NCBI RefSeq assembly: GCF_900105155.1
Contig: NZ_LT629762.1
Coordinates: 5,465,501-5,529,500, forward strand
Length of the DNA: 64,000 nt
Reading direction: 5' to 3'
Source: Pseudomonas prosekii
Lineage (GTDB): Bacteria > Pseudomonadota > Gammaproteobacteria > Pseudomonadales > Pseudomonadaceae
Numbering within the stretch: the first letter of the stretch is position 1; each line of letters opens with the position of its first letter. Both the position numbers and the translations under genes were made by a program. Shown piece after piece: positions 8,422 through 52,449 of this stretch. Under the pieces are notes generated by a model. It was not told the origin of the DNA. It ran no database searches and saw nothing but the letters and a program-made list of their open reading frames with translations.

Positions 8422-8930
8422 ACAGGAACCTCGCGGCGAGCGGTAAACATCAAGACCCTTGCTCGGACGCGGTTTGGTGGCGAAAGGTTCGCGATTGACT
8501 GTAATCAGAGGTGTCGGTCGTCAGGTTTTTCGGCGTCTGCAACGGGCCTGATGGCTGTTTGCTGGCTTCTAAACATGTTTAGTGGGATCTGTTTAGCGAC
8601 ACCCGTTGTAACGTCCTGAAGACTACAAAACCTTGTGCCTTTGCCTACGGTTAAGACAGAATCCGCCGGCTTGTGCGCCTTGCTCTTGAGCCCTATTGTT
8701 TGCCTGCCACTGCTCATCAGTGGTCGGGTTTAGTAGCTCGAGAGTTTTAGTGAGGTGCATCAACTCTGTTCATTCAGGTATTTCGGTATCTGTATTTGAT
8801 GGCAGTTGTGCGCAGGGCACCTTCGGGTGCGCCGGTTTTTGCTAAACCTCCCGGTCTACTAACCTGCGTACAGCTGCCACCCTTCTTTTAGTAGGGAATG
8901 GTTGCGGCCCTTCAATGAGGTATAGCAACT
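8422..8930. other. 509-bp non-coding stretch with a UUCG hairpin
   Basis: No convincing gene. The rightward part, about 8760-8930, looks like a leader for the DUF6124 gene: a stem GCACC/GGTGC (8817-8821, 8826-8830) closes a TTCG tetraloop and is followed by GCCGGTTTTT. I see no clear promoter boxes that I would place with confidence. Confidence 0.5.
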
Positions 8931-45217: not shown

Positions 45218-48200
45218 TCAATAAACATCGCGCAAATAGCGCTTCTGCTCGCTCATCTGCCGCCAGTAATCCGCGGCATTTTCCGCACTTAACCCACCGT
45301 GCTCCTGCGCCACCTCGCGCAGCACCCGGTCGACATCCTTGGCCATCTGACTCGCGTCGCCGCAGACATACAGCTGGGCGCCGTCCTGCAGCCAGCGCCA
45401 CAATTCGGCGCCGTGTTCTCTGATTCGGTCCTGCACGTAAATCTTCTGTGGCTGATCGCGGGAGAAGGCCAGGCTCAGTTGCGTCAGCAGGCCGTCGTGC
45501 TGCATGCCTTGCAATTCTTCGCGGTAGTAAAAATCGCTGGCAGCGTGTTGTTCGCCGAAGAACAGCCAGTTGCGACCCTGATCGCCACGGGCGCGACGTT
45601 CTTGCAGGAAGCCACGAAACGGCGCCACGCCGGTGCCGGGGCCGATCATGATCATCGGCACGTTGCCGTCGCCGGGTGCGCGAAAGTGCCGGGTTGGCTG
45701 CACGAACACCGGGACTTCGCCGCTGGCCACGCGGTCGGCGAGGAAGGTTGACGACACGCCTTTGCGTTTGCCATAGCGCACCGCTGCCACGGTCAAATGC
45801 ACTTCCTCGGGATGCGCCTTGGCGCTGGAAGAAATGGAATACAACCGTGGTTGCAGACGTTTCAGCGCGCCCAACAGCTCAGTCGCCGAGCACTCAATCG
45901 GAAACGCCTGCAGCACGTCCGCCAATTGCCGGCCCCAGAGCCAGTCCTTCAATTCCTCTCTGCGCTCACAGCTCAGCAACTGTTTCAGCTGTGGATTGGC
46001 GCTGCGCTCGGCGATGAACGTCAGGGTTTCGCGATTCGGCCGGGCAATCTCAAAGTGCTCGGTGAGCGCCTGGCGCAGTCCGATATCGCCGAGTTTGTCG
46101 ACAGTCACGCAGGTATCCGCGCCAAGCCGCGTGAGCGTGAGCACTTCGTCGACCAGTTCCGGACAGTTGCGCGGCCACACGCCCAAGGCATCGCCGGCCT
46201 CGTAGCGCAATCCGGAATCGGCCAGATCCAGCGAAAACATCCGCGTTTCCTTATGCCGGCTCTGCTGATTCAAGTGCAGATTATTCAGCAGCCGCGAAGC
46301 GTAAGGATTGCTTTTGCCGGGCGCTTCAATCGGGCTCTTGGCGACACCGGCGCTCAACGCCTGCGCCGGTTTCAGCAATTGATGAAACTGCTTCAGCCAG
46401 GCCTGCGCGCGTTCTTCAAACTCGGTATCGCAATCGACCCGATCCAGCAGCCGCGTGGCGCCCAGTTCCTGCAGGCGTTGATCGAGTTGTTTGCCGTGGT
46501 GGCAGAACTGCTCGTAGTTCGGATCGCCCAGCGCCAGCACGGCGAAACGCAGCGATTCCAGACGCGTTTCGGCGCGGCTCAAGGTGTGCCAGAAACCCTC
46601 GCCATTGTCCGGCGGATCGCCGTCACCGAAAGTGCTGCTGATCAGCGCCAACGTCTGCGTGTCCGCCAGTTTGCTCGCCGGGAAATCGGCCATCGCGCTC
46701 AATTCCACGGCGATGCCTTCTTCGCGCAACCGCGCGGCAAAACGCTGCGCCAATGCTTCGGCGTTACCGGTTTGCGAGGCCCACAACATCGTCACCGTCG
46801 GCCGGTTATCGTCGGCCAGCACACTCGTCGCCACGGCACTTTGCACCCGGCTGAACAAGCCGCCGAGCAAGCCGTCCAGCCATAACCGCGTGCCCTCGGC
46901 CATCGGCGCGTTGGCGGGCAGGGCAGGGACACCAGCGGCCTGGCGCCCGGCAGTCGATTGCAGGCCGCTGATAAAACCGGCGAGGTAGGTGCGTTCACTG
47001 TCGTTCAGTTGTGGCGAAGGCTGGCGGCTGATGCCGGCGAGCTCGGCAAAAGCCTCGATGCACGGCATGGGCAGTTCCTCAGTTGCACCGGCAAGGTCAA
47101 TGTCGGCAGGCGTCGCGACATGCAGAAACTGGTGCTCGATCAGTTCGACGCGCTGCAGCGCGACCGCGCAGAACTTGAATTCCGGCTGCAGCGAAATCGG
47201 GTCGACGGCATCGTTGGTCACCGCGTTGATCGCCAGGTTTTCGCCAAACACATCGTTCCAGTGAAACGGCGCAAAACAGTTGCCCTGACGCACCCGGTCC
47301 GTGACCACCGCCGGCAACACCGCACGGCCACGCAACGAACGAATCTCGAGGTGATCCTTGTCCTTGATCCCAAGGCTGGCGGCGTCTTCCGGGTGGATTT
47401 CAACGAAAGGCCCCGGATTCAGTTTGTTCAGCGTCGCGACTTTGCCGGTCTTCGTCAGCGTGTGCCACTGGTGCTGCAGGCGCCCGGTATTCAGCACAAA
47501 CGGGAACTGCTCATTGGGCATTTCTGCCGGCGACAAGTGAGGTCGGGCGAAGAAAATCCCCTTGCCGCGCTCAGTGGCAAATACGATGGCCGGGCGACTG
47601 CCGTCGTCATCAATCTTCAGCTGCTGACTCACGCCATCGTTCAGATAACGAATCGGATTACGCAACGCAGCCGCGTCGGCGGCGCACGGCCATTGCACTG
47701 GGCTCTCTCGCAAACGCGCATAACTCGCGCCGCGAATGTCATACCCGGTCTTCGGGTTCCAGGCGCGTTTGATCTCTTCAAATACCTGCGACGCCGAGCT
47801 GTAACTGAAGGCCTCGGCGAAGCCCATGGCGCACGCGACTTTGGCGATGATTTGCCAGTCGGGCATTGATTCGCCAGGCGCATCCACGGCTTTTTGCATC
47901 AGCGTCAGGTTGCGCTCGGAGTTGATCATCACGCCTTCGGCCTCGGCCCACAGCGCGCCGGGCAGCAAAATGTCGGCGTAGCGATTGGTCTCGGTGTCGA
48001 GAAAAGCATCCTGGGTGATCACCAGTTCGGCGTTCTGCAAACCTTCGATGACGGTCTGGCGATTCGGCGCCGAGGCGACCGGGTTGGTGCAGATGATCCA
48101 GCACGCCTTGATCTGTCCGGCGCGCATCTGTTCGAACATCGCCACTGTGCCGCCACTCACCGTGCGCGGCAGGCTATCGCGAGGGATTTGCCACAAGTCT

Positions 48201-49294
48201 TCAATAAATGCGCGATCGGCTTCGACCAGCACCGAACGCTGACCAGGCAAGCCCGGGCCCATGTAGCCCATCTCGCGGCCGCCCATGGCATTGGGTTGTC
48301 CGGTCAGGGAAAACGGCCCGCTGCCCGGCCGGCAAATGGCGCCGGTGGCCAGGTGCAAATTGCACAGCGCGTTGGTGTTCCAGGTGCCGTGGGTGCTCTG
48401 ATTGAGGCCCATGGTCCAGCAACTCATCCACTCGGCTGCCGCGCCGATCCATTCAGCGGCCTGACGAATATCGGCTTCGCGCAGGCCGGTAATCTCGGCG
48501 ACGGCGCTCGGCGAATAGTCTTCGAGGAACGCCGGCAGCGCTTCCCAACCTTCGGTAAAGGACGCGATAAAGTCCGGGTCGGTGTGGCCGTTTTTCACCA
48601 GCAGATGCAGCAAACCATTGAGCAACGCGAGGTCGGTGCCAGGTTTGATGTGCAGGAACAAACCGGCCTTGTCTGCGGTGGCGTTGCGCCGCGGGTCAAC
48701 CACGATCAACTTCGCCCCCGCCTTGACCCGATCCATCATGCGCAGGAACAGAATCGGGTGACAGTCGGCCATGTTCGCGCCGATCACCAGGAACACCTCG
48801 GCGTGGTCGAAATCCTCATAAGAACCCGGCGGCCCGTCGGAACCGAGCGAGAGTTTGTAGCCGCTGCCAGCGCTGGCCATGCACAGCCGCGAGTTGGATT
48901 CGATGTTGTGAGTGCGCACGAAACCCTTGGCCAACTTGTTGATCAGGTATTGCGCTTCCAGCGACATTTGCCCCGAGACATAAAACGCCAGCGCGTCCGG
49001 ACCGTGGCGATCCAGCAGATTGCGCAGGCGGCTGGCGGTTTCGTTGATCGCTTCATCGATGCCAATCTGCACCGGATCGCGACTGCGCTCCTGGCGCAAA
49101 AAGGCGTTTTCCATGCGTCCCGATTCGGCAATCGCCTGGCCGCAGGTCGTGCCTTTGGTGCAGATCCGCCCGAAATTGCTGGGATGGGTTTTATCACCGG
49201 TGACCTTGACCACCCGGTTGCTTTCGACCTGCATGACGATGCCGCAACCCACGCCACAATAGGGACATACGCTGCGTACGCTGGTGTGTGCCAT
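45218..49294 (-). CDS. nasA: assimilatory nitrate reductase fused to CysJ-like flavoprotein reductase
   Basis: A 1358-residue fused enzyme. Residues about 1-820 are a molybdopterin oxidoreductase with an N-terminal [4Fe-4S] site (Cys10, Cys13, Cys17, Cys45) and bis-MGD binding regions, reducing nitrate to nitrite. After a linker, a flavodoxin-like FMN domain (WASQTGNAEAL near 833) and an FAD/NADPH reductase domain (RLYSISSSAKAHPEEVHLTV; IMIGPGTGVAPFRGFL) follow, ending DVY as in CysJ. The fusion lets NADPH feed the nitrate site directly. ATG 49294 has GAGGGAC upstream. It diverges from nirBD, with an ANTAR-type leader and terminator ahead of the start codon. Confidence 0.95.
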   Translation of the reverse strand: MAHTSVRSVCPYCGVGCGIVMQVESNRVVKVTGDKTHPSNFGRICTKGTTCGQAIAESGRMENAFLRQERSRDPVQIGIDEAINETASRLRNLLDRHGPDALAFYVSGQMSLEAQYLINKLAKGFVRTHNIESNSRLCMASAGSGYKLSLGSDGPPGSYEDFDHAEVFLVIGANMADCHPILFLRMMDRVKAGAKLIVVDPRRNATADKAGLFLHIKPGTDLALLNGLLHLLVKNGHTDPDFIASFTEGWEALPAFLEDYSPSAVAEITGLREADIRQAAEWIGAAAEWMSCWTMGLNQSTHGTWNTNALCNLHLATGAICRPGSGPFSLTGQPNAMGGREMGYMGPGLPGQRSVLVEADRAFIEDLWQIPRDSLPRTVSGGTVAMFEQMRAGQIKACWIICTNPVASAPNRQTVIEGLQNAELVITQDAFLDTETNRYADILLPGALWAEAEGVMINSERNLTLMQKAVDAPGESMPDWQIIAKVACAMGFAEAFSYSSASQVFEEIKRAWNPKTGYDIRGASYARLRESPVQWPCAADAAALRNPIRYLNDGVSQQLKIDDDGSRPAIVFATERGKGIFFARPHLSPAEMPNEQFPFVLNTGRLQHQWHTLTKTGKVATLNKLNPGPFVEIHPEDAASLGIKDKDHLEIRSLRGRAVLPAVVTDRVRQGNCFAPFHWNDVFGENLAINAVTNDAVDPISLQPEFKFCAVALQRVELIEHQFLHVATPADIDLAGATEELPMPCIEAFAELAGISRQPSPQLNDSERTYLAGFISGLQSTAGRQAAGVPALPANAPMAEGTRLWLDGLLGGLFSRVQSAVATSVLADDNRPTVTMLWASQTGNAEALAQRFAARLREEGIAVELSAMADFPASKLADTQTLALISSTFGDGDPPDNGEGFWHTLSRAETRLESLRFAVLALGDPNYEQFCHHGKQLDQRLQELGATRLLDRVDCDTEFEERAQAWLKQFHQLLKPAQALSAGVAKSPIEAPGKSNPYASRLLNNLHLNQQSRHKETRMFSLDLADSGLRYEAGDALGVWPRNCPELVDEVLTLTRLGADTCVTVDKLGDIGLRQALTEHFEIARPNRETLTFIAERSANPQLKQLLSCERREELKDWLWGRQLADVLQAFPIECSATELLGALKRLQPRLYSISSSAKAHPEEVHLTVAAVRYGKRKGVSSTFLADRVASGEVPVFVQPTRHFRAPGDGNVPMIMIGPGTGVAPFRGFLQERRARGDQGRNWLFFGEQHAASDFYYREELQGMQHDGLLTQLSLAFSRDQPQKIYVQDRIREHGAELWRWLQDGAQLYVCGDASQMAKDVDRVLREVAQEHGGLSAENAADYWRQMSEQKRYLRDVY

Positions 49295-49339: not shown

Positions 49340-49390
49340 AAAAAAAACGCCATGTGACCCTCCGTTATGCAAACGGGAGTTACACGGCGT
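49340..49390 (-). terminator. leader terminator of nasA
   Basis: On the minus strand, ACGCC.TGT.A stem sequences pair with the complement ACATGGCGT around the CTCCCGTTTGCATAACGGAG hairpin, followed by eight T residues, 46 bp before the nasA start. Its 5' arm overlaps the second hexaloop hairpin (49384-49399). Confidence 0.8.
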
Positions 49391-49422
49391 CTTTGTCGTA
49401 GGTGGGCAATCAGCGTTGACTG
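49384..49422 (-). promoter_or_regulatory. dual hexaloop (ANTAR-target) element, nasA leader
   Basis: P1 at 49407-49422: CAGTC-AACGCT-GATTG on the minus strand, with A at loop position 1 and G at 4. P2 at 49384-49399: ACGAC-AAAGAC-GCCGT, also A1 and G4, with one mismatched pair. The 7-base linker and overlap with the terminator match the antitermination motif recognised by NasR/NasT-type ANTAR proteins. Confidence 0.75.
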
Positions 49423-49436
49423 CTTTGAGGTGTTAC

Positions 49437-49453
49437 TAGCAAGTCACGCGCCA
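49437..49453 (-). promoter_or_regulatory. sigma-54-type promoter of nasA
   Basis: Minus strand TGGCGC-GTGAC-TTGCTA: GG and GC elements separated by exactly 10 bases. The predicted transcript start falls about 5 bases before hairpin P1, as expected for an antitermination leader. Confidence 0.75.
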
Positions 49454-49562
49454 TAACCGATGATCAGTATTCAACGCCGGTAAATCAGCGGGTCGGGGCT
49501 GAACGCGCGGCTATTCGCAGCGCTGACTCAAGCTGTAATCGATGCACTTTTTTATAGCGCCG

Positions 49563-49581
49563 TGCACCAGTCGGATGCGCA
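49563..49581. promoter_or_regulatory. possible NtrC-type enhancer
   Basis: TGCACCAGTCGGATGCGCA, a partial dyad close to NtrC binding sequences, placed between the two divergent sigma-54-type promoters. Weak match. Confidence 0.3.
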
Positions 49582-49655
49582 ATCGTCGCCGCCCAGCGTC
49601 GATGGCAATCGCAATAAATCGCCGAGTCGCCCGGTTTCAAGGGGGGGCGCGGCGA

Positions 49656-49672
49656 TTGGCACAAACGCTGCA
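49656..49672 (+). promoter_or_regulatory. sigma-54-type promoter of nirB
   Basis: TTGGCACAAACGCTGCA: GG and GC with N10 between (49658-49659 and 49670-49671). The start would be near 49683, so the leader before the first hairpin is about 85 nt. Confidence 0.65.
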
Positions 49673-49767
49673 AGTCGTCAGGCAAACCCATTGCGAATAC
49701 GCGTTGGGTCGCCCCCTCGGTCAACGACGATCGAATGGCCAACTGGTCGTGGGCAACATCGGTGGAG

Positions 49768-49819
49768 CAGGCATAGATGCCTGATCACAACACCGCAAAA
49801 GAACAGGCAAAGACGCCTG
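49768..49819 (+). promoter_or_regulatory. dual hexaloop (ANTAR-target) element, nirB leader
   Basis: P1 at 49768-49783: CAGGC-ATAGAT-GCCTG. P2 at 49804-49819: CAGGC-AAAGAC-GCCTG. Both have perfect 5-bp stems and loops with A1 and G4. A 20-nt linker separates them, and P2's 3' strand is the 5' arm of the terminator at 49813. Confidence 0.85.
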
Positions 49820-49848
49820 GAACCGCAAGGTTTCAGGCGTTTTTTTTT
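49813..49848 (+). terminator. leader terminator of nirB
   Basis: A 12-bp stem (ACGCCTGGAACC / complement with one G-U) around a GCAA tetraloop, then eight T residues, 39 bp before the nirB ATG. Forming hairpin P2 would block it. Confidence 0.92.
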
Positions 49849-49887
49849 GCTTTTTGAACCGTGATTGGCCGTGCAAGGGTGCTTCTT

Positions 49888-52449
49888 ATGAATTCCAATG
49901 TTGCCGCGTTGAACAAACTGCAAACGCTGATCGTGATCGGCAATGGCATGGTCGGACATCATTGTGTCGAACAACTGATCGAGCGCGGAGCGCTGGCGGA
50001 CTATCGGCTGCACGTCTTCAGCGAGGAGCCGATGCGTGCCTACGACCGCGTGCATCTTTCCGAGTATTTCACCGGCCGCGATGCCGAATCGCTGGCGCTG
50101 TCGGATGCGTCGCTGTACCAGACGCCGGGCGTCACGCTGCACTTGGGCGTGCCGATTCTGCAGATTGATCGCGAGCGCCGCGAGGTGATTACCGCGCAGG
50201 GTTGCGTGGCCTACGACAAGTTGGTGTTGGCCACCGGTTCGTACCCGTTTGTGCCGCCGATTGACGGCGCCGAAGGTGACTCGCGGCTGGTCTATCGCAC
50301 GCTCGAAGACCTCGACGCCATCCGTGCGGCAGCGGCCAATGCGCGGCGCGGAGTGGTGGTCGGCGGTGGTTTGCTGGGTCTGGAAGCGGCCAATGCCCTC
50401 AAGAGCCTGGGGCTGGAAGCGCACGTGGTCGAGTTCGCCCCACGCTTGATGCCGGTGCAACTGGATGACTTCGGCGGTCTGGCACTGAAGGCGCAAATCG
50501 AGCGACTGGGCGTCGGTGTGCACCTGTCCCGCGCCACGCAGTCGATCAGCGCTGGCGAGGATTACCGCTACCGGATGAATTTTGCCAATGACGAATTCCT
50601 CGAAACCGACCTGATTGTGTTCTCCGCCGGGATCCGTGCGCAGGATGCGTTGGCCCGCGACTGCGCGTTGGACATCGGGCCGCGCGGCGGCGTGGTGATC
50701 AACGACGAATGCCTCAGCAGCGACCCGAACATTTACGCCATCGGCGAATGCGCGGCGTGGAACGGCAGCCTGTTCGGCCTCGTTGCGCCGGGTTACCAAA
50801 TGGCCCGCGGGGTTGCCGCTCAGTTATGCAAGCAGGGCGCCGAGCCGTTCCTTGGCGCGGACATGTCGACCAAACTCAAATTGCTCGGCGTTGACGTCGG
50901 TTCGATCGGCGATGCCCACGCCCACACGCCGGGCGCGCGCAGCTATCAGTTCATCGACGAAGCGAGCGCCAGCTACCGGCGTCTGGTAGTCGATGCCAGC
51001 GGAAAACACGTGATCGGCGCGGTGCTGGTCGGCGATAACAGCTACTACGACACGCTGCTGCAATACCTGCAGAACGCGATTGCCTTGCCAGCGGAACCGG
51101 CCAGTCTGATCCTGCCGTCGTCCGGAGGCGCGCCGACCCTCGGCCCCGGCGCACTGCCGCAAAGCGCTACTGTCTGCTCGTGCCACAACGTCAGCAAAGG
51201 CTCGATCTGTTCCGCAATTGACGGCGGCTGCACCGACCTCGGCTTGCTCAAAGCGCAGACCAAGGCCGGCACCGGTTGCGGCGGATGCGCCGGGCTGCTC
51301 AAGCAAGTTTTCGAGCACGAGTTGATTGCCCGTGGCGTCAGCGTCGACAAAAGCCTGTGCGAACATTTCGCCTACACGCGTCAGGAACTCTATGCGCTGG
51401 TGCGCGTTGAGGGCGTGCTCACCTTCGAAGAATTGCTCGCCAAACACGGGCGTGGCCACACCGGTTGCGACGTGTGCAAACCGGCGGTGGGCTCGATTCT
51501 CGCGTCTTGCTGGAACCAGCCGATCATGGACGCGTCGCTGGTGCCGTTGCAGGACACCAACGACACTTTCATGGCCAACATGCAGAAAAACGGCACGTAT
51601 TCGGTGGTGCCGCGCATCCCCGGCGGCGAGATCACCGCCGACAAACTGATCGCGATTGGCGTGGTGGCGAAAAAGTACGACCTCTACACCAAGATCACCG
51701 GCGGCCAGCGCATCGACCTGTTCGGCGCGCAGTTGCATGAATTGCCGGAGATCTGGAGCGAGCTGATCGAAGCCGGTTTCGAAACCGGCCACGCTTACGG
51801 CAAATCCACGCGCACGGTGAAATCCTGCGTCGGCAGCACCTGGTGCCGTTACGGTGTGCAGGACAGCGTGAAAATGGCCCTGCTGATCGAAGACCGCTAC
51901 AAAGGCCTGCGCTCGCCGCACAAACTCAAATTCGCCGTGTCCGGTTGCACCCGTGAATGCGCCGAAGCGCAGAGCAAAGACGTCGGCGTGATTGCTACCG
52001 AAAAGGGCTGGAACCTTTACATCTCCGGCAACGGCGGCATGCGTCCGCGTCATGCCGAGCTGTTCGCCACCGACCTCGACGATGACACGCTGATCCGCTA
52101 CATCGACCGTTTCCTGATGTTCTACATCCGCACCGCCGACAAATTGCAGCGCACCTCGGTGTGGCGCGAGAGCCTGGAGGGCGGTCTGGATTTCCTCAAA
52201 GAAGTAATCATCGAAGACAGCCTCGGGCTCGGCGCCGAACTTGAAGCGCAGATGCAGTTGGTCGTCGATCGCTACGAATGCGAATGGGCCAACGCCCTCA
52301 AAGACCCGGAAAAACTCAAGCGCTTCCGCACCTTCGTCAACGATAAACGCCCGGACCCGGACATCCATTTTGTTCAGGAACGCGGCCAACGGCGCCCGAT
52401 CATGGCCGCCGAACTCAACCTGATTCCGCTCACCGAGGAGATTGCCTGA
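49888..52449 (+). CDS. nirB: NAD(P)H nitrite reductase large subunit
   Basis: An 853-residue assimilatory nitrite reductase subunit that reduces nitrite to ammonium. An N-terminal FAD/NAD(P) reductase module covers about 1-340; a BFD-like [2Fe-2S] region starts with CSCHNVSKGSIC near 430; the sirohaem-[4Fe-4S] core follows, with CVGSTWCRYG near 647 and CTREC near 687. ATG 49888 has AAGGG upstream. The ATG of nirD overlaps its stop. Expression is probably controlled by the sigma-54-type promoter and the ANTAR-type leader, diverging from nasA. Confidence 0.96.
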   Translation: MNSNVAALNKLQTLIVIGNGMVGHHCVEQLIERGALADYRLHVFSEEPMRAYDRVHLSEYFTGRDAESLALSDASLYQTPGVTLHLGVPILQIDRERREVITAQGCVAYDKLVLATGSYPFVPPIDGAEGDSRLVYRTLEDLDAIRAAAANARRGVVVGGGLLGLEAANALKSLGLEAHVVEFAPRLMPVQLDDFGGLALKAQIERLGVGVHLSRATQSISAGEDYRYRMNFANDEFLETDLIVFSAGIRAQDALARDCALDIGPRGGVVINDECLSSDPNIYAIGECAAWNGSLFGLVAPGYQMARGVAAQLCKQGAEPFLGADMSTKLKLLGVDVGSIGDAHAHTPGARSYQFIDEASASYRRLVVDASGKHVIGAVLVGDNSYYDTLLQYLQNAIALPAEPASLILPSSGGAPTLGPGALPQSATVCSCHNVSKGSICSAIDGGCTDLGLLKAQTKAGTGCGGCAGLLKQVFEHELIARGVSVDKSLCEHFAYTRQELYALVRVEGVLTFEELLAKHGRGHTGCDVCKPAVGSILASCWNQPIMDASLVPLQDTNDTFMANMQKNGTYSVVPRIPGGEITADKLIAIGVVAKKYDLYTKITGGQRIDLFGAQLHELPEIWSELIEAGFETGHAYGKSTRTVKSCVGSTWCRYGVQDSVKMALLIEDRYKGLRSPHKLKFAVSGCTRECAEAQSKDVGVIATEKGWNLYISGNGGMRPRHAELFATDLDDDTLIRYIDRFLMFYIRTADKLQRTSVWRESLEGGLDFLKEVIIEDSLGLGAELEAQMQLVVDRYECEWANALKDPEKLKRFRTFVNDKRPDPDIHFVQERGQRRPIMAAELNLIPLTEEIA

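Follow-up and report, generated by a model that had tools for sequence, protein, structure and literature searches.

Two divergent leaders upstream of nasA and nirB in Pseudomonas prosekii are predicted targets of the ANTAR protein NasT

The Divergent nasA and nirB Genes

The window, i.e., the whole stretch of 64,000 nucleotides that was analyzed, belongs to a Pseudomonas genome of 6.09 Mb that consists of a single contig. It contains the gene nirB (49888-52449, plus strand), which encodes the large subunit of nitrite reductase (TIGR02374, 1037.9 bits), and the gene nasA (45218-49294, minus strand), whose product joins an assimilatory nitrate reductase to flavodoxin/FAD/NAD(P) reductase domains. 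The Pfam domains Molybdopterin, Flavodoxin_1, FAD_binding_1, and NAD_binding_1 were found in one long protein, and NasA is apparently a single-chain nitrate reductase. nirB is oriented rightward and nasA leftward, and their two divergent leaders lie between the genes. A preliminary description, made from the sequence alone, had placed two hairpins with defined loops and an overlapping terminator in each leader, and direct reading of the sequence confirmed this arrangement.

For comparison, 80 named nirB loci, the best 80 of 589 relatives, were used, which together with the window gave 81 leaders. The closest named NirB was that of P. frederiksbergensis 38F7 (96% identical; very near records may be left out). 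The gene nasA was found on the opposite strand within the fetched flank in 26 of these best 80 loci, five of which had short flanks, and together with the window 27 divergent nasA leaders were available. The second hairpin, P2, of nirB was present in all 26 named divergent pairs, and that of nasA had its usual form in 25 of them, the exception being locus L030. The strains are related, and therefore the leader counts given here and below are not independent draws.

At the left part of the window a C4 antisense RNA was detected (8795-8884, plus strand; RF01695, 78.6 bits). C4 antisense RNAs usually mark phages of the P1/P4/P7 type, and thus a prophage or its remnant may be present there.

Putative Promoters and a Candidate Enhancer

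A sigma54-type -24/-12 promoter of nirB, TGGCACAAACGCTGC, was found at 49657-49671 (plus strand) with a TGGC-type pattern. The pattern was present upstream of P2 in 79 of the 81 nirB leaders (best 80 of 589 relatives plus window), compared to 4 of 81 on the opposite strand and a mean of 2.9 (maximum 7) in 50 shuffles. It was absent from L038 and L076, and in L060, L069, and L077 the match was off register and, as judged by eye, a better one lies close by. A sigma54 consensus has been given as TGGCAC-N5-7-TTGCT, and a predicted sigma54 promoter for nasT-type genes has also been reported (PMC12316311).

The sigma54-type promoter of nasA, TGGCGCGTGACTTGC, is located at 49439-49453 (minus strand) and corresponds to the first 15 positions of the Rfam narK model. 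All 27 divergent regions had the pattern at most 200 nt from the nasA start, and 25 of the 27 had it under a slightly tighter limit; the opposite strand gave 1 of 27, and 50 shuffles a mean of 1.7. Between the divergent promoters there are two NtrC-like dyads (49543-49579), which form a candidate shared enhancer; they were recognized with the NtrC consensus. A GCACCAGTNGGA-type site was present in 10 of the 27 divergent regions, namely the window and nine loci with a NirB that is 93-96% identical, and a different NtrC-like site in two of the 27. Such an enhancer, acting on both promoters, is no more than a candidate; it was observed in a single lineage and counted without a chance control.

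The nasA Leader

The first hairpin of the nasA leader, P1 (49406-49423, minus strand; GCAGTC-AACGCT-GATTGC), has a predicted energy of -7.9 kcal/mol, and four of its five pairs had changes on both sides (alignment A2). P2 (49384-49399, minus strand; ACGAC-AAAGAC-GCCGT) follows after a linker of 6-7 nt, which is inside the range of about 5-12 nt of ANTAR targets. The intrinsic terminator with its T tract occupies 49340-49390 (minus strand; terminator 49390-49347) and was predicted at -22.9 kcal/mol with a z score of -4.8; the energy ranged from -22.9 to -25.4 kcal/mol depending on the stretch that was folded. The P1-P2 stretch as a whole was no more stable than its shuffles (z -0.6). In the P1/P2 set (alignment A2), 61 cells with changes on both sides were found, against 17.2 in shuffles (reached by 0 of 500), while the number of pairs with both-side changes and the number of further pair types were not above shuffles (175 of 500 and 79 of 500, respectively).

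The one mismatch that had been reported for the nasA P2 is present. It is an A.C mismatch that adjoins the closing pair, and it was found in 27 of 27 divergent nasA leaders, which rules out a local mutation and strengthens the proposal that the two leaders differ in sensitivity. The loops had been described as six-base loops, and their sequences were correct. Two of them, ATAGAT of nirB and AACGCT of nasA P1, were predicted to form an additional A-U pair in the window and thus to close to four bases. Likewise, the P2 loop AAAGAC is indeed identical in both leaders of the window, but this identity is not conserved: the 26 other divergent nasA leaders have AAAGGC in 25 cases and GAAGGC in one. 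The latter, L030, is the only one of the 27 whose P2 loop starts with a G, and it represents a natural test of the A1 rule. In L067 the nasA P1 lacks G4, as judged by eye.

The nirB Leader Appears to Be Three-Armed

The nirB leader has a more elaborate predicted structure. In the minimum free energy (MFE) fold of the window, the order is a 5' stem, a junction that holds a distal hairpin, a two-tier arm, 8 nt, and P2. The 5' structural stem, P0 (49686-49709, all nirB elements on the plus strand), is followed by a three-way junction (49711-49754), whose closing stem (49711-14/49751-54) surrounds the distal hairpin P1* (49717-49734, loop AACGAC) and the side hairpin P1b (49735-49750). The arm Pm (49760-49795) has a base stem (49760-64/49791-95) and an apical hairpin (49768-49783, CAGGC-ATAGAT-GCCTG). 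P2 (49804-49819, CAGGC-AAAGAC-GCCTG) has a predicted energy of -7.0 kcal/mol, and its stem is invariant across 29 leaders. The terminator (49813-49848) has 12 base pairs (49813-49840) and a T tract (49840-49848), and it was predicted at -21.0 kcal/mol with a z score of -7.1. Its 5' arm starts at position 5 of the P2 loop and consists of loop positions 5-6 and the 3' strand of P2; the predicted folds extend into the loop.

The structure was evaluated with an alignment of 29 leaders (alignment A1), which had been picked from 60 non-redundant leaders for alignability; L025 and more distant lineages were left out. In the stems, 84.3% of the cells paired versus 80.9% in shuffles, 15 pairs had changes on both sides versus 9.5 (0 of 500), and 43 further pair types were seen versus 37.9 (11 of 500); all slid versions were far lower. 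The fraction of paired cells was 100% for the terminator, 85% for the closing stem of the junction, 75% for P0, and 63% for P1b, which is weak. Six of seven pairs of the outer helix of P0 had both-side changes, and P0 was absent (gaps) in five of the 29 leaders. A pairing of columns 3-5 with columns 13-15 proposed by RNAalifold was disregarded, because these columns are the -24/-12 promoter elements. Thirty-seven leaders of other strains, with the window excluded, served to build an RNA model, R3, which matched the nirB leader of the window with 101.1 bits (E 8.4e-24); the next non-overlapping match in the genome had 26.4 bits and was at a tRNA terminator.

The terminator was analyzed in both leader sets. 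Position 5 of the P2 loop and its partner in the 3' arm of the terminator formed A-U 21 times, G-C seven times, and G-U once in the 29 leaders, and G-C 19 times, A-U 15 times, and G-U three times in the 37 leaders. Cells with both-side changes exceeded all shuffles in both sets. The number of pairs with both-side changes (469 of 500 for n = 29, 194 of 500 for n = 37) and the further pair types (469 of 500 and 460 of 500) were not above shuffles. In addition, RNAalifold predicted that the AAAG of the nirB P2 loop can pair with the T tract. Together with the reach of the terminator arm into the loop, this indicates that a loop-bound protein and the terminator should exclude each other.

The hairpin with the loop ATAGAT, which the preliminary description had named P1 of nirB, turned out to be real, but it is the middle one of three, and a better conserved hairpin, P1*, lies upstream of it. 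P1* was also found by hairpin enumeration that assumed no loop bases. The best conserved P1-type hairpin is thus additional to the one described before, and the nirB leader appears to be three-armed, with a third, distal P1-type hairpin beyond the textbook target of two hairpins. An enumeration of hexaloop hairpins closed by C-G in the 81 leaders, blind to the loop sequence, yielded A1/G4 in 95 of 129 cases, compared to 0 of 89 on the opposite strand and 7.6% in shuffles. For MFE folding 79 nirB leaders were used (L038 and L076, which lack the promoter pattern, were dropped), and a four-base loop plus closing pair was counted as a hexaloop. The arm proximal to P2 had an R1/G4 hexaloop in 63 leaders (A1/G4 in 44), a more distal R1/G4 hairpin was present in 63 (A1/G4 in 58), and both were present in 50, versus a mean of 0.1 in 20 shuffles and none in the reverse complement. 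Neither arm had R1/G4 in three leaders (L048, L051, and L067), and L067 is without any A1/G4 or G1/G4 hairpin upstream of the nirB P2.

Which of the arms would be contacted by the regulator can be viewed in different ways. One possibility, which we take seriously without favoring it, is that only P1* and P2 are contacted by NasT and that Pm is a structural spacer joining them. The sequence of P1* is nearly invariant, with A1 and G4 in 29 of 29 leaders, whereas Pm varies and has A at position 1 in 19 and G in 10 of the 29, and five leaders (L054, L058, L061, L062, and L065) have kept the distal A1/G4 hairpin, while their proximal arm is without an R1/G4 hexaloop. A mere spacer is at odds with the finding that position 4 of the Pm loop is G in 29 of 29, with L041, L045, and L046, which have the canonical AACG loop on the proximal arm and G1 on the distal one, and with L059, L069, L073, and L077, where the only arm lies 13 nt upstream of P2.

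The reading of the preliminary description, that only Pm and P2 form the target and that P1* is a remnant or has another role, seems doubtful. The end of the Pm arm is 8 nt before P2, similar to the linkers of the narK leader (7 nt) and of nasA, and within the 5-12 nt of the eut leaders given in the available part of PMC3369931. Against this reading, P1* is better conserved than Pm in the 29 leaders, and 20 nt separate the apical Pm stem from P2; a linker of 14 nt already impaired induction in eutP (PMC3369931). It is very improbable that the hairpins act as DNA operators or are just the repeats that accompany terminators: P1* is nearly palindromic, which would suit a DNA site, and as RNA alone it reaches only z -1.3 versus shuffles, and every intrinsic terminator has an inverted repeat, but the A1/G4 loop bases are conserved while the stems covary, the DNA palindrome is broken by a G.U pair kept in 28 of 29 P1* hairpins, and the A1/G4 hexaloops are confined to one strand.

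NasT and a Predicted Regulon of Four Leaders

The preliminary description had suggested that the genome be searched for an ANTAR gene. A search with the profile PF03861 revealed a single one, nasT, directly after nasS; its product has a receiver and an ANTAR domain. The refuting condition named there, a genome devoid of ANTAR proteins, does not apply. A model of the canonical P1-P2 RNA, R2, matched before the MFS transporter gene that follows nasT (the narK leader, 51.6 bits), before nasA (48.2 bits), and before nasS (47.2 bits), and the next-best place in the genome had 18.0 bits. All three leaders were in the training set, and the gap to the next match is therefore the informative part. The bare P2 core, GNNAAAGACNNC, had 209 matches genome-wide versus 253 for the reversed control. 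When the window was scanned with R2 up to E 10, the nirB leader was not matched, a point against this leader being simply a second narK RNA.

A sigma54-type promoter precedes each of the four leaders in the genome. The nasST leader (L090:2700-2860, G000:C1:782700-782859) has its own such promoter followed by P1, P2, and a terminator, and about 1.6 kb upstream of it lies an rmf RNA (L090:946-1078; RF01755, 114 bits). The presence of a leader before nasS implies autoregulation of nasST, and NasT probably regulates itself through this leader. The four leaders, of nasA, nirB, the transporter gene beside nasT, and nasST itself, would fit a single NasT. The nasT regions of the own genome and of 40 of the 101 other genomes with NasT were compared. 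With a loose search, P1 and P2 were found before nasS in 28 of these 41 regions (some are doubtful; a strict pattern gave 23), and 20 of the 41 had them upstream of the gene that follows nasT. In at least six regions (L095, L115, L121, L122, L125, and L129) the nasS promoter was kept without the hairpins, as judged by eye.

Hexaloop stem-loops with A1/G4 and a C-G closing pair are present in both leaders of the window, three of them in the nirB leader; in both, P2 overlaps and is predicted to exclude an intrinsic terminator, and NasT is the only ANTAR match in the same genome. The earlier proposal of leaders of the NasT/NasR type that one regulator could free together is thus supported by the conserved A1/G4 loops, the covariation of the stems, and the terminator overlap. 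It is very probable that both are nitrate-responsive antitermination leaders that are freed by NasT through a switch between P2 and terminator, as members of a regulon of four leaders. We infer NasT binding, antitermination at this locus, and any order of induction from the sequence; that NasS releases NasT and that NasT binds a nasA leader is adopted by analogy from other bacteria.

The following mechanism is proposed. Under nitrogen limitation, transcription would begin at the two putative sigma54 promoters. In the absence of nitrate, NasS would hold NasT and P2 would yield to the terminator, whose 5' arm comprises the 3' strand of P2 and two or more bases of its loop; RNA polymerase would then stop before nirB and nasA. 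Nitrate or nitrite would lead to the release of NasT, which would bind a P1-type hairpin and P2 at their A1/G4 hexaloops. With P2 held by NasT, both operons would be read through. The same NasT would also serve the transporter leader and, autoregulatorily, the nasST leader.

Predicted P2 Stability Differs between the Leaders

The energies of P2 were calculated with nearest-neighbor parameters for the best P2 helix, with the outer pairs allowed to open. In this genome they were -7.0 kcal/mol for nirB, -4.2 for narK, -2.1 for nasS, and +0.3 for nasA. The same gradation was seen in the means of the four classes, i.e., -7.0 for nirB (80 leaders, L067 not scored), -4.1 for narK (20 leaders), -2.6 for nasS (23 leaders, range -6.5 to +0.4), and +0.3 for nasA (25 leaders, L030 and L067 not scored). 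When a five-pair stem was forced, the nasS value of this genome changed from -2.1 to +1.0, while the other three were unchanged; the rank of nasS next to nasA is therefore uncertain. The mean terminator energies were -23.2 kcal/mol for nirB (81 leaders), -25.4 for narK (20), -26.2 for nasS (24), and -27.5 for nasA (24), whereby the means of nasS and nasA include near-zero values, which are probably terminators cut short by the pattern.

Of the four classes, nirB thus combines the most stable P2 with the terminator that is weakest on average, and the reverse is true for nasA, so that nirB is predicted to be induced first and nasA last. According to these modeled energies, nitrite reductase would respond ahead of nitrate reductase, which suggests that a leader-specific P2 stability leads to an order of induction. 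With +0.3 kcal/mol the nasA P2 was predicted to be hardly stable alone, a point against the proposed mechanism. The full proposal is rather unlikely, namely that nirB has a three-armed target with a duplicated P1 and that the P2 stabilities of nirB, narK, nasST, and nasA are tuned and inherited, so that nitrite reductase is switched on at a lower level of free NasT than nitrate reductase. If true, the tuning of P2 would keep nitrite from piling up. The small regulon would present like contact loops on stems of very different, class-specific strength to one RNA-binding protein, and with four natural leaders and one protein the question whether the stability of the antiterminator sets the order of induction is directly testable.

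NasT and NasR in the Genus Pseudomonas

The distribution of NasT was analyzed in 119 Pseudomonas genomes, 102 of which encode NasT. NirB was found at E up to 1e-100 in 106 genomes, in 71 with at least 79% identity and in 35 with only about 35-38%. All 102 genomes with NasT were among these 106, and 13 genomes had neither protein. Proteins of the second kind, NirB-like with about 35-38% identity, occur in many of the 119 genomes, in several of them a few kilobases from nasT. Twelve of the 13 genomes without NasT and NirB had no ANTAR match, and the remaining one (G051, 9% contamination) had two.

Of the 71 genomes in which NirB reached 79% identity or more, 67 had NasT, and the other four (G001, G018, G043, and G068) have NasR, a NIT-ANTAR protein, instead. 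The corresponding loci (L145, L146, L147, and L148) have kept P2 and terminator of nirB, which rules out that the leader needs NasT itself; the leader is thus not tied to this protein. P1-type loops, as judged by eye, were clear in G043 and G068, one was seen in G018, and none was obvious in G001. In L145-L147 a protein that is 37-41% identical to NasS adjoins NasR. Within the genus the leader therefore appears to have been retained while its regulator was naturally exchanged between NasST and NasR.

R2 matched at E up to 0.01 in all 102 genomes with NasT, some of which had supplied training sequences, and in nine of the 17 genomes without NasT. The latter included three of the NasR genomes, G001 (weak), G043, and G068, while G018, which has NasR and a NirB orthologue, had no R2 match at E up to 0.01. 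The other six have neither NasT nor a NirB orthologue; the match was strong in G086 (4e-11) and weak in G003, G065, G074, G091, and G105. In G086, which had no ANTAR match, the nasA leader is kept before a nasA with a large internal deletion (L152, G086:C3:371700-374800), in which matches to residues 1-116 and 1270-1358 adjoin.

Comparison with Known Systems

NasT-dependent antitermination of a nirBD leader is already known. NalA, the nirBD leader of P. aeruginosa, is described in the available parts of two papers as having a sigma54 promoter, a terminator, and NasT-dependent antitermination (PMC12830290, PMC3973561, citing Romeo et al. 2012). The leader of the window is likewise located before nirB and has a sigma54-type promoter and a terminator. 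The two were compared by description; for NalA, those parts speak of neither a third hairpin, nor a divergent nasA, nor another leader.

The leaders of the window share A1/G4 hexaloops, the C-G closing pair, and a P2 exclusive with the terminator with the eut leaders of Enterococcus (EutV) and with Klebsiella nasF (NasR), as far as these are described in the accessible parts of PMC3369931 and PMC7496416; SELEX with NasR selected A1, G4, and the C:G closing pair (PMC7496416). In contrast to these two-hairpin targets, the nirB leader appears to carry one P1-type arm more and, ahead of P2, an arm of two tiers, and the nasA P2 has a fixed mismatch. In Paracoccus denitrificans, NasT binds the nasA leader RNA and nitrate frees NasT from NasS, and the part of the paper at hand describes one leader in the nasTS-nasA cluster (PMC3795266), whereas here there are four leaders at two places of the genome. 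In the open-licence literature, nothing was found on the narK motif or on ANTAR motifs of Pseudomonas nirB. As far as the literature was searched, the third arm, the leader-specific P2, the count of four leaders, the reading of RF03032 given below, and the NasR swap within the genus may be new, although this is uncertain.

The nasA leader matched the Rfam family RF03032, narK RNA, with 57.3 bits (E 4.2e-8, gathering score 43.2), and the transporter leader matched it with 82.4 bits. The nirB leader matched no Rfam family at the gathering score, and at E up to 10 only sub-threshold, unrelated families were retrieved; RF03032 was not among them, which rules out that the nirB leader is a second narK RNA. 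Positions 1-15 of the RF03032 model, GGCaCAgcucUUGCU, fit a sigma54 promoter by their GG-N10-GC spacing, and the 3' end that the model draws as "unpaired", ACGACAAAGACGUCG, corresponds to the P2 hairpin. From the model consensus and these loci we infer that RF03032 consists of promoter DNA plus an ANTAR target, which suggests that the family may mix promoter DNA with RNA and overlook its second hairpin.
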